Origin: Candidatus Saccharibacteria bacterium 49-20
Lineage (GTDB): Bacteria; Patescibacteriota; Saccharimonadia; Saccharimonadales; Saccharimonadaceae
DNA length: 64,000 nt
NCBI GenBank assembly: GCA_001897295.1
Contig: MKSN01000001.1
Span: 516,011 to 580,010 of the forward strand
Reading direction: 5' to 3'
The stretch's first letter is position 1, and the number at the start of each line of letters is the position of its first letter. Positions 31,932 through 36,805 of this stretch are shown here, piece by piece. The position numbers were made by a program, and so were the translations under genes. The notes beneath the pieces were generated by a model that was not told the DNA's origin, searched no databases, and saw nothing but the letters and a program-made list of their open reading frames with translations.

Positions 31932-32957
31932 ATGCCCACCCCTTCTCATCAACGCGAGTGGAGCGGCGAGGCGCAACGGCTCAACAAAGAAGCTTCGGAA
32001 GCGCTCCAACCTCTTCATGACGACCTCGCGGAACTCACACCAACTTTCGACGGAATCGTCTATTTTGCGGTAGATAAATGGCACCGCGACAATGCCAGTG
32101 CTGTCGCAACCGTACAGCCAGACTCGGACGACATTGACCGCTTTTTGTTTTACCAAGAAAAAATCAAAAACCATCGCGTTGACCTTGGTGCGGCCGCACT
32201 CGGCACCGCCCTTCGAATGCCCGAGCCGGCGCTCCTTAAAAGCCGAATGAACCCCGATGCCCACATGACATGGGCCCACCGCCTCATCATCGACGACTCT
32301 ATTACGGGCGGACTCCAAGCAGCATACAATAAGGGCTACGGCAAAGTTCCAACCAACACGCGTGCAATAGATGCAGCATGGGCGAAACACGAAGATACAG
32401 TCTACGATGTTGCCGCCGCATTTCGCGACTTTTCGCTCAAAACCGACTCTATCGGCGACACGCTCGAACTCCTTGCGCCTGCCACGCCAAATGCGTTTAT
32501 TCTCAGTTGGGATCTTGATCACTCGACCGAGCTCGCCGCCGAACAGTACGGCACACTGCGCAATTTTCTCATCGACACAAAAAGTCTTTTCCGTCATGAA
32601 ACAGGCGCACTAAGCACCCACATCCATGACACAGGTGATGGCCAAGATATAACCCTATGGCTTCCAGATGGCGTCGATCGCGCCAGCCTTGCTAGCGTGC
32701 AACGTTTTGGAAAAAGTGCCGTCCTCCCGCTTCTCGACCGACTCCAGCAAGTGCACCGCCCACTTAAGGAAGTAACCTATGCCGATATTGAGCCGTCCAT
32801 TCACTATGCAATAGGCCTTGGCTATGTTGAGCACGACCGCCACGACGAACGCACAAGTCAAGAATATTGGCCCATCTCAAAGCTCCATAAAAATTCCGAA
32901 CCTAGCGTCGCATCATTCACGAAAAATGCGCTCCGCGTCCTCGGAAACCTTGAATAA
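31932..32957 (+). CDS. Hypothetical protein with a nucleotide-cyclase-like C-terminal half
   Basis: Family not firmly recognised. The 341 residues have a helical N-terminal half (about 1-180) and a C-terminal half that resembles a degenerate class III cyclase (CHD) fold: AFILSWDLDHSTELA in place of the FaDivgST strand, HIHDTGDGQDITLWLP in place of the tiGDgfla strand, then IEPSIHYAIGLGYVE like the IGIHxG strand. One metal-binding Asp position seems kept and others changed, so it may bind rather than cyclise nucleotides. No signal peptide. TATAAT ends 11 nt before the ATG: leaderless. Codon use matches neighbours. The cyclase resemblance is by eye. Confidence 0.6.
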   Translation: MPTPSHQREWSGEAQRLNKEASEALQPLHDDLAELTPTFDGIVYFAVDKWHRDNASAVATVQPDSDDIDRFLFYQEKIKNHRVDLGAAALGTALRMPEPALLKSRMNPDAHMTWAHRLIIDDSITGGLQAAYNKGYGKVPTNTRAIDAAWAKHEDTVYDVAAAFRDFSLKTDSIGDTLELLAPATPNAFILSWDLDHSTELAAEQYGTLRNFLIDTKSLFRHETGALSTHIHDTGDGQDITLWLPDGVDRASLASVQRFGKSAVLPLLDRLQQVHRPLKEVTYADIEPSIHYAIGLGYVEHDRHDERTSQEYWPISKLHKNSEPSVASFTKNALRVLGNLE

Positions 32958-34323: not shown

Positions 34324-34427
34324 GATATTACTCCTTTTACTTCCCCGTTCGCGCCTTCTAGCTATTGAGCCAAAGGAGTAACTTGCGATTCGGGTGTTTC
34401 ATTAAATCTCGTTACCCTGTTATTATA
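34324..34427 (-). promoter_or_regulatory. rpsB promoter and leader with self-pairing Shine-Dalgarno
   Basis: TATAAT at 34427-34422 gives a leader of roughly 90 nt. The ribosome site AAAGGAGTAA (34337-34328) is perfectly complementary to TTACTCCTTT at 34381-34372, a 10-bp stem closing a 34-nt loop. This is the form expected of an S2 autoregulatory or stringent-type leader. Pairing is seen; regulation is inferred. Confidence 0.7.
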
Positions 34428-34457
34428 GCGCATTTTACAGGGGTTGTCTAGATGCCC

Positions 34458-34883
34458 CTACGCTTCGGCTTCGCGTGCAATCAAATCCGCCTGCAACACA
34501 CTAAAAACTCGATACCCCGCCGCAACACCCTCAGCATCTGGCTCATAGACAACTTCTGCATCGCCATGACGGAACTTCAACTCAGAATGTTCAAAGACTA
34601 ACGCAGAATCTGGCTCGTCAGAAGAATCAGATGGTAGCTCGATCGCCAGGCTCCCCTCATGCTCGGAAACGACCGTCACGGTATCGGTCTGGCCAAACGG
34701 CAAAGAAACCTCTCGAGACACTACGTCGTCGGGTGCGTCGGCCTCGGCACGGAAGGTAAAAATATCCTGTGGAATGCGCGCAATAATACCATTAAAATCG
34801 CGTTCATAATCAGTGTCGTGTTCAATCGCACTGACGGTAACACTTGGTTCTTTTGGCGGCTCGGGGAATTCAAAATTTACCAT
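34458..34883 (-). CDS. Hypothetical acidic protein downstream of the clan-CD peptidase
   Basis: A 141-residue acidic protein (many Asp/Glu, few Lys) with alternating beta-type segments, for example VSLPFGQTDTVTVVSEHEGSLAIELP. No signal peptide or membrane segment and no recognisable family. The ATG is 5 nt after the stop of the clan-CD peptidase-like gene, so the two are co-translated. It could be an inhibitor, chaperone or substrate of that protein; this is only from position. Confidence 0.7.
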   Translation of the reverse strand: MVNFEFPEPPKEPSVTVSAIEHDTDYERDFNGIIARIPQDIFTFRAEADAPDDVVSREVSLPFGQTDTVTVVSEHEGSLAIELPSDSSDEPDSALVFEHSELKFRHGDAEVVYEPDAEGVAAGYRVFSVLQADLIAREAEA

Positions 34884-34888
34884 ACTAC

Positions 34889-36805
34889 TTACACCTTTTC
34901 CTCTAGTCTACTCGCCTTTCGCACGGGTTCAAAGCTGTCGATTGCGCGCTTACTGATAGTAACTGTCGGTTTTTCAACTTCTCGCAGCCCAAGTCGCGTC
35001 ATCACGCGTTCTTTTCGCGTCAGTGACCTTGGCGGCACCGTTTCAAGCGATAATTCGACACCTGCACTTATCGCATCAAGCACCGAGAGCCCTCGTTGCT
35101 GTGTGTCATCATAGTTCGCAAACCTCACGACGCCCTGTTCATCGTGTCGCCCAGCTGCCATCACGTCCGAGGCACCGATGACCTTAAGGTTCATGCGCTG
35201 CGCACGCTTCAGGAATGTCTGCGCAACCGATACACCATCATCGCGCTCAGCGGCACTGCTACAGTTATGAAGAATAATACGGCGCTCGCCATGCTCGTCG
35301 TCCGTCATAAACTCATCGCTTACCACGCGCGAAAGGTTCATTTGATCAATATGCACATCAACGCTCTTTGGGAGCTTCAACCCGCGATCGGTATTCTCGG
35401 AAAGCAAATAGAAAATATCGACGCCGTCGCTAAACTCGGTCGCTCCGGGTAGTCCATGCGCGGCAATTACAATTGAAGTCGCCTTAATGCCATGTTTCTT
35501 TAGTAGCAATAGGCGGCGATAAAAATCACTCGGCCGAGACACTTCAAATAGCAGCGTCTGCGCATCTTCGCGCGAGTACATGCGCCCCACATCGCCCATG
35601 GCATTGTTATGATCAGAGTACGCCGTTGAAAACACTACTGTTACGCCGTTTCCCTGCATCTTTTCACGCAATTCAATTGATCGGTCATCACTACCAATCA
35701 AGGCTTTCATATTATCAATCGTTGTCTCGTCGTACCGATCAATATTCACTAGTCCAAATTCTTCAGACAATACATTTATAAGTTCGGGCGCAACCCTACG
35801 TGTCAGCTTTTTCGCGCGCTGCACCTGCTCGCGAATAGTTTGGCCGGAAATATACTGCGGCTCGCCCTCCTCGGCATTTACGCGCTGCGCAAGCGAACGA
35901 TGCAGAAGCGCCTGAAGATACTTAGTACTCGTTGCCTCGCTGAGTCCCATCCACTCCAGCATATATTTAAGGCGTTGGCGCATCTGGCTTTCGTGAAGCG
36001 CTATGCCTTCTGGGGTAAATTCTTTTGGCTCACTATGTGCAAATTCATACTCCGCCATAGGGTACATGCCGGACTCACGGCGAAGTAAGTCGACCGCAGG
36101 ATCTTCACCCTTTGGAATAAGATCAAGGGGCTGCTTTTTGTAGTAGGCCGAGGCGAGCACATTCGCCCGACTCTGGGTACTCATATGATCCGATGCCGCC
36201 AGGTTTGCAAGGAAACTACGCCCCGAATGATGCCGCGAGGTTGATTCAGGCGTCAGCCAGTACGTCTCTTGAAAAAGCTCCCGAGGCATCACACCACTTT
36301 CGAGCACACTATCAATATTCGGTGCGCCTGGGATACGCAGCTCGTCTTTTCCATAGGTAAAATCGTCCGCTTCACCCTGCAGCATAAAGACCGCCTTGAG
36401 TAGGCTATCCGCCTCTTCGGCTTTCATGGCACCCCAGGGAAGCTCAGTCAGCTCTTTATGAAATGCGTCGGTCGCACCTTCAAGCTGCTTCCATTCTGGT
36501 GACGCATGCACCGCCGCAACGTTGCCGCCATAGCGCACGGTGACATCCTGGTATTGATAAAGTAGCGCCTCACTCGCACCCATAAAGCCTGCGAATTCTT
36601 TGCGACCCACAAACGGCTCAAAGCCAGGTAACACCGAGTGCTTTGTATCGAGCACCTCGAGTGCTGCGGGCAGATGCGCGTGGGCCTCATGCGTCGCAGG
36701 CCCAGCGCCATATTGTGCATGAAGGTCACTCTCAAGCGCACGAAGTTCAGCGCCCGACTCGTGGTCGGACGAAGATGAACCCTCACCCTCTTGATCAACT
36801 GACAT
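34889..36805 (-). CDS. Clan-CD (caspase/CHAT-like) cysteine peptidase candidate
   Basis: A 638-residue cytoplasmic protein. The C-terminal third holds the two catalytic blocks of clan CD peptidases at the expected order and spacing: a hydrophobic strand then His-Gly (SIVIAAHGLPG, H449) and a second hydrophobic strand then Asn-Cys (RIILHNCSSA, C514). The N-terminal 350 residues are mainly helical and unassigned. No signal peptide or transmembrane segment is seen, so it would act inside the cell, as bacterial CHAT and metacaspase-like proteases do. It is followed at 5 nt by an acidic 141-aa gene. The promoter (TATACT, AAGGAG before the ATG) overlaps that of the divergent DUF475 gene. Catalysis is predicted, not known. 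Confidence 0.7.
   Translation of the reverse strand: MSVDQEGEGSSSSDHESGAELRALESDLHAQYGAGPATHEAHAHLPAALEVLDTKHSVLPGFEPFVGRKEFAGFMGASEALLYQYQDVTVRYGGNVAAVHASPEWKQLEGATDAFHKELTELPWGAMKAEEADSLLKAVFMLQGEADDFTYGKDELRIPGAPNIDSVLESGVMPRELFQETYWLTPESTSRHHSGRSFLANLAASDHMSTQSRANVLASAYYKKQPLDLIPKGEDPAVDLLRRESGMYPMAEYEFAHSEPKEFTPEGIALHESQMRQRLKYMLEWMGLSEATSTKYLQALLHRSLAQRVNAEEGEPQYISGQTIREQVQRAKKLTRRVAPELINVLSEEFGLVNIDRYDETTIDNMKALIGSDDRSIELREKMQGNGVTVVFSTAYSDHNNAMGDVGRMYSREDAQTLLFEVSRPSDFYRRLLLLKKHGIKATSIVIAAHGLPGATEFSDGVDIFYLLSENTDRGLKLPKSVDVHIDQMNLSRVVSDEFMTDDEHGERRIILHNCSSAAERDDGVSVAQTFLKRAQRMNLKVIGASDVMAAGRHDEQGVVRFANYDDTQQRGLSVLDAISAGVELSLETVPPRSLTRKERVMTRLGLREVEKPTVTISKRAIDSFEPVRKASRLEEKV

Follow-up and report, generated by a model that had tools for sequence, protein, structure and literature searches.

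Proteases of the caspase type turn up repeatedly in bacterial immunity and in regulated death. In Craspase, the TPR-CHAT protein Csx29 cleaves Csx30. Other points of comparison for a bacterial protein of this kind include SAVED-CHAT, the C14 group (caspases, MALT1 and metacaspases), DUF4347 and the C80 domains, together with two-gene toxin-antitoxin and protease-inhibitor operons. Clan CD is recognised by the positions of the catalytic His and Cys and by a Gly beside the His, and the residues that form the S1 pocket lie in loop 1/helix 1, loop 4 and loop 5, Asp365 of MALT1 being in helix 1 (PMC4357240). Patescibacteria are little covered for caspase-like proteases: the candidate phyla radiation could not enter the habit statistics of one study (PMC7159879), and an orthocaspase survey leaves Patescibacteria unmentioned (PMC6426788). 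Saccharibacteria live as epibionts, and a type IV secretion system is conserved among them (PMC12102498). The sequence considered here, referred to below as the window, is a stretch of 64,000 nucleotides from a Saccharibacteria genome that consists of a single contig of 904,897 bases; the ribosomal genes around the cassette and the named relatives agree with that placement.

A Two-Gene Cassette Upstream of rpsB

The gene pair lies on the minus strand of the window and comprises the following features.

34889..36805, minus strand: predicted clan-CD cysteine peptidase gene, 638 aa (ORF, homologues, invariant dyad and fold models)
35681..36805, minus strand: N-terminal region (residues 1-375), variable and for the most part helical, a candidate sensor or regulatory part
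35036..35680, minus strand: predicted caspase-haemoglobinase catalytic domain, residues ~376-590 (models and conservation)
35600..35614, minus strand: D398-H-N-N-A402 motif after strand 1, the family signature, in the predicted S1 pocket region
35543..35545, minus strand: E421, which closes strand 2 and is kept in >=90% of sequences, a possible helper of the catalytic His
35456..35458, minus strand: predicted catalytic His450, invariant in 20 sequences, at the end of strand 3 in the AlphaFold model
35261..35263, minus strand: predicted catalytic Cys515, invariant in 20 sequences, directly after strand 4 in the model
34884..34888, minus strand: 5-nt gap from protease stop to partner start, indicating translational coupling (sequence, and homologue gaps of -8 to +5 nt)
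34458..34883, minus strand: acidic partner gene, 141 aa, net charge -23 (ORF, partner family, charge and co-occurrence)

Both reading frames stand where an earlier note on this DNA had placed them, with the protease directly before the 141-aa acidic gene, and the junction between them reads TAA-GTAGT-ATG. On one flank of the cassette lies an alx/TerC-like gene, on the other rpsB-tsf-frr-uppS, and the 64-kb window around the protease is a setting of housekeeping genes rather than a defence island. Within the genus the protease occurs in one of 17 genomes, that of the source; in the nearest congener, whose rpsB is 94% identical, rpsB comes straight after alx and the site is empty. Elsewhere in the genus the slot before rpsB is either empty or filled by pilin-like genes, an RCC1-repeat gene or others again, and since its contents differ among congeners it is a general variable site that sometimes carries a phage-defence gene. 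There is strong support for regarding the two genes as an accessory cassette in this variable slot.

Several observations concern the same region. In congener G192 a gene for AbiH (PF14253, E 4.3e-31; L084:2389-3363) lies directly upstream of rpsB, in the cassette's slot, and in congener G164 a gene for an RCC1-repeat protein (E ~1e-80; L077:5-1348) takes the corresponding position. A 434-aa ORF before rpsB in L081 has no His-Gly/Cys pair and was not counted as a relative. Between tsf and frr the window carries, on the opposite strand (31932-32957, plus), a 341-aa ORF with no family match; because relatives carry different ORFs there, the rpsB operon region has a further variable slot at this point. 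Upstream of rpsB there is also a TATAAT-like sequence (34421-34430, minus strand) that is, by eye, conserved in L073, a congener without the cassette, which suggests that rpsB is served by a promoter of its own.

Predicted Fold and Catalytic Residues

Alignments of 18 and then 20 homologues, the latter 15-37% identical to the window's protease, leave H450 and C515 as the sole invariant columns, and for this reason the two blocks in which they lie are more than chance resemblances. The earlier note had picked out these His-Gly and Asn-Cys blocks correctly, its numbering (H449 and C514) falling one residue short of the actual positions. A Gly follows the catalytic His here (H450-G451) and in most relatives; certain members of one branch (type B, below) have Ser or Thr instead. 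The family also carries a signature after strand 1, D-x-N-[GN]-[AG], which reads DHNNA in the window's protein (residues 398-402), with Asp at the D398 column in 17 of 20 homologues. It recurs in relatives from more remote Patescibacteria, as DWNGG in L069, DHNNA in L106 and DWNGA in L107. As D398 sits at the place that matches Asp365 of MALT1, Arg or Lys is predicted at P1; D398 and N400 would line the S1 pocket, and cleavage would then most likely follow Arg or Lys. The type-B pair L045/L047 is under purifying selection (dN/dS ~0.07), dN in the N-terminal part being nearly three times that in the catalytic part.

An AlphaFold2 model of the window's protease, built with five homologues, has a mean pLDDT of 58.7, with values per block of 74-91 over residues 321-400 and of 54-89 over most strands from residues 411 to 550; the N-terminal region is poorly conserved and has low confidence before residue 250. 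The modelled order of elements is strand 1 (388-394), helix, strand 2 (417-422), helix, strand 3 (442-452, including H450), hairpin, strand 4 (508-514) followed at once by C515, helix, and strand 5 (540-545). In the model, the His thus ends strand 3 and the Cys ends strand 4, as in members of clan CD. The best VIA match of this model was to a SAVED-CHAT structure (8tl0, Z 7.5, 147 residues, 4.2 A) and the next to caspase-6 (Z 7.4, 143 residues, 3.8 A). The catalytic region of the homologue L055, modelled alone, reached a pTM of 0.71 with clan-CD topology and the same placement of His and Cys, and all 50 of the 50 VIA matches listed for it belong to clan CD (SAVED-CHAT, caspases, MALT1 and C80/CPD domains). 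VIA Z was <8 throughout for both models, and Foldseek returned no match with E <0.001 for either; given these weak E-values and Z scores, the fold assignment draws on the VIA lists together with conservation. The earlier note had proposed a check by AlphaFold and Foldseek; the caspase-haemoglobinase topology appeared in the AlphaFold models and a Foldseek match at E <0.001 did not, while its claim of a clan-CD fold with a His/Cys dyad is upheld by conservation and by the two models. A clan-CD caspase-haemoglobinase fold, in which H450 closes strand 3 and C515 closes strand 4, is accordingly a strongly supported prediction for the C-terminal domain, and the protein is very probably a clan-CD cysteine peptidase.

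No hydrophobic membrane or signal segment was found in any of the 19 family members checked (19/19), all of which look soluble. This agrees with the cytoplasmic location given in the earlier note and is compatible with type IV export as well.

Relation to Described Families

By sequence the protease stands apart from the named families. Scans against Pfam, NCBIfam and PADLOC gave no significant match for protease or partner; the protease is by sequence neither CHAT nor a member of another named family. The CHAT profile (PF12770) had no match in Pfam scans or in a genome search, and the caspase C14 profile (PF00656) none in Pfam scans. The window's protease was likewise unmatched by DUF4347 (PF14252) in a Pfam scan, and in a genome search with the DUF4347 profile in which no positive control responded. 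One relative, L098, matched DUF4347 over the His-to-Cys stretch at E 0.043, below the curated cut-off; this is the only clan-CD-like sequence match and the nearest sequence signal for the family. Sequence searches of the PDB found nothing with the protease profile and nothing useful with the partner profile, and a literature search found no paper on the protease family.

The likenesses are of other kinds. SAVED-CHAT 8tl0 is the best or tied best structural match (Z 7.5 and 7.2), the Craspase structure 7xsr with TPR-CHAT/Csx29 gives a VIA Z of 5.4, and in CHAT proteins, as here, the clan-CD domain is C-terminal to a helical N-terminal region. The window's protease differs in having no CHAT profile match and no SAVED, TPR or Cas neighbour, and its family has a D-x-N-[GN]-A motif and a small acidic partner of its own. 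With caspases, MALT1 and metacaspases (C14) it shares the fold and the order of the His and Cys strands, and with MALT1 an acidic residue in the S1 loop (PMC4357240), but it lacks a C14 profile match, a known caspase prodomain and caspase-linked gene neighbours. DUF4347 has a similar HG-PG...G and ...C pattern. The C80 domains, compared by structure lists alone, reach VIA Z 6.1-6.5 for the homologue model; unlike them, the window's protease has no sequence match, is not within a large secreted toxin, and shows no evidence of an InsP6 site. As in toxin-antitoxin and protease-inhibitor operons, the two genes are coupled, and the small acidic one is never confidently alone; here, however, the small gene comes after the large one, many homologues have no small gene, and there is no toxin-antitoxin profile match. 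The window's protease thus has the structural features of the clan and yet forms a genuine new family of its own.

The Acidic Partner

The partner contains 32 D/E against 9 K/R residues. Partner ORFs accompany 7/12 type-A homologues and 0/6 type-B homologues. The seven are acidic and 126-145 aa long, and relative to the stop codon of the protease their starts lie between -8 and +5 nt. In leave-one-out profile searches the window's partner was recovered at E 2.5e-7, that of L046 at 2.3e-4 and that of L013 at 2.6e-3; the other members scored weakly and are assigned mainly by position. Searched against 198 genomes, the partner profile gave five confident matches, all five adjoining a protease, and a sixth, marginal match inside a 752-aa frame; since the profile was built from these same partners, the search tests for solitary copies and is not an independent count. 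Only M1 and R45 are invariant among the seven, and there is no conserved candidate cleavage site. A 127-aa ORF after L017 did not belong to the partner family by profile (E 67), and a 435-aa ORF of no known family (L019:8082-9389, G088), 12 nt upstream of a partner-less homologue, is perhaps an alternative partner.

The small acidic partner of the earlier note is therefore present at this locus, though not a constant companion of the protease. Type B and several type-A members lack it and it is never confidently found alone, so dependence runs one way, from partner to protease. It is thus not essential to the enzyme, and so is an accessory regulator, chaperone or substrate.

Distribution and Genomic Context

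Profile and sequence searches yielded homologues at ~20-30% identity, with strong matches in 10 of 198 genomes of the source's taxonomic family and in 13 of 392 genomes of its order, plus three weaker ones. More distant members in other Patescibacteria were matched at E ~1e-15 (L106 and L107) or at marginal E-values (L068, L069 and L071). Nothing was found by a single-sequence scan of genome contigs, by alignment scans of viral contigs, or by protein searches of plasmids and phages. Reading of the ORFs showed some profile matches to be false positives, namely trigger-factor ORFs in L031-L034 and a pilin-like ORF in L054, and L070, which matched in its first part only and has no His-Gly/Cys pair, was rejected.

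The tree divides the family into types A and B with support of 100/99, the order within type A being unresolved. The type-B proteins L014 and L045 are 60% identical and come from different taxonomic families, whereas type-A members of one taxonomic family are only ~20-25% identical, a comparison which suggests that type B may have spread horizontally. Protease copies also decay, since the homologue at L012:2345-4714 (G043) has one in-frame TAG before the catalytic His and the L097 copy is a fragment that ends before the Cys.

Direct defence context was seen for one homologue, the type-B protease L047, which is convergent to a Shedu gene 1 nt away (PADLOC E 2.6e-66 for Shedu); an HTH_17 gene and a large serine recombinase are found at a distance of ~0.4 kb from it. 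In this region (L047:6316-11239, G434) Shedu SduA, the protease, HTH_17 and the recombinase stand side by side next to ychF; it is a small mobile defence island. Taken together, the Shedu neighbour, the AbiH gene in the slot and the patchy distribution make the chances about even that the family has a role in defence or cell death.

Possible Functions

The explanation preferred here, at close to an even chance, is a soluble clan-CD endopeptidase that is restrained or licensed by a coupled acidic protein and acts in phage conflict or cell suicide. C515 would act as nucleophile and H450 as base, perhaps helped by E421. The variable helical N-terminus may sense a trigger or recruit a target, and the co-translated acidic protein would bind the enzyme and silence or license it until triggered. 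Once triggered, the peptidase would cut one or a few cell proteins, and the cleavage would stop a phage or mobile element, or kill the infected cell. Such an enzyme would be a self-contained regulated protease, on which the acidic protein acts only where it is present. Should it have no protease activity, the caspase-like fold would serve as a binding or scaffold protein. VIA Z values <8, the lack of a curated family match and the Ser or Thr that certain type-B members have in place of the Gly after the His are consistent with that idea, but the His and Cys are the sole residues kept in 20 divergent proteins, the opposite of what a dead enzyme would show, and it is highly improbable.

Where the protease acts, and on what, bears on the remaining alternatives. 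Secretion chaperones are typically small, acidic and encoded in coupled position. The partner's size, acidity and position are typical in the same way, and could mean that it is the chaperone of an effector protease which the patescibacterial type IV secretion system delivers into the host bacterium. Epibiont Saccharibacteria conserve such a system (PMC12102498), the C-terminal tails of some members are basic (+6 over the C50 of the window's protein, +11 in L018), and rapid divergence would fit a host-interaction gene. Against export, type-A members do not agree in the charge of their C-termini (-5 to +8 over the C30), type B has no partner and has one member beside Shedu, and no export signal was found; an exported effector is on the whole unlikely. 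Alternatively, the triggered protease may cleave the acidic protein itself, which would then be the real effector or regulator, much as Csx29 cleaves Csx30 in Craspase. Tight coupling, and a partner that strictly requires the protease (5/5 confident matches adjacent), accord with this, and an acidic partner would suit an enzyme with predicted basic P1 only if a basic site were exposed. However, the partner is small and poor in basic residues (9 K/R), no candidate cleavage site is conserved in it, and 5/12 type-A proteases are without it, all of which makes a substrate role improbable.

The location of the cassette invites a reading outside conflict altogether, in which a regulatory or maturation protease has been kept by a few lineages at an old rpmE-rpsB locus and lost by most. 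The place beside rpmE and rpsB is common to members of two taxonomic families, the neighbourhood is one of housekeeping genes, and purifying selection in type B is strong. Yet the protease is present in ~5% of genomes and in one of 17 congeners, identity is very low at the same locus, some copies are broken, and type B occurs at other loci near a recombinase; private processing of this sort is distinctly unlikely.

Implications

If the preferred conflict reading holds, it could extend beyond this genome, to caspase-like executioner proteases across Patescibacteria, one branch of which has an acidic inhibitor coupled to it, and which would give obligate epibionts of <1 Mb genome size a new system against phages or for cell suicide; taken jointly, these claims are tentative and the balance lies against them. 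The clear dyad, the defining motif and the linked partner make protease-based defence or suicide in 0.9-Mb epibionts testable, and equally the alternative that epibionts use such proteases on their hosts. What the cassette adds is a previously unclassified caspase relative, with a small acidic partner, scattered across Patescibacteria and found here in an ultrasmall, host-dependent bacterium.
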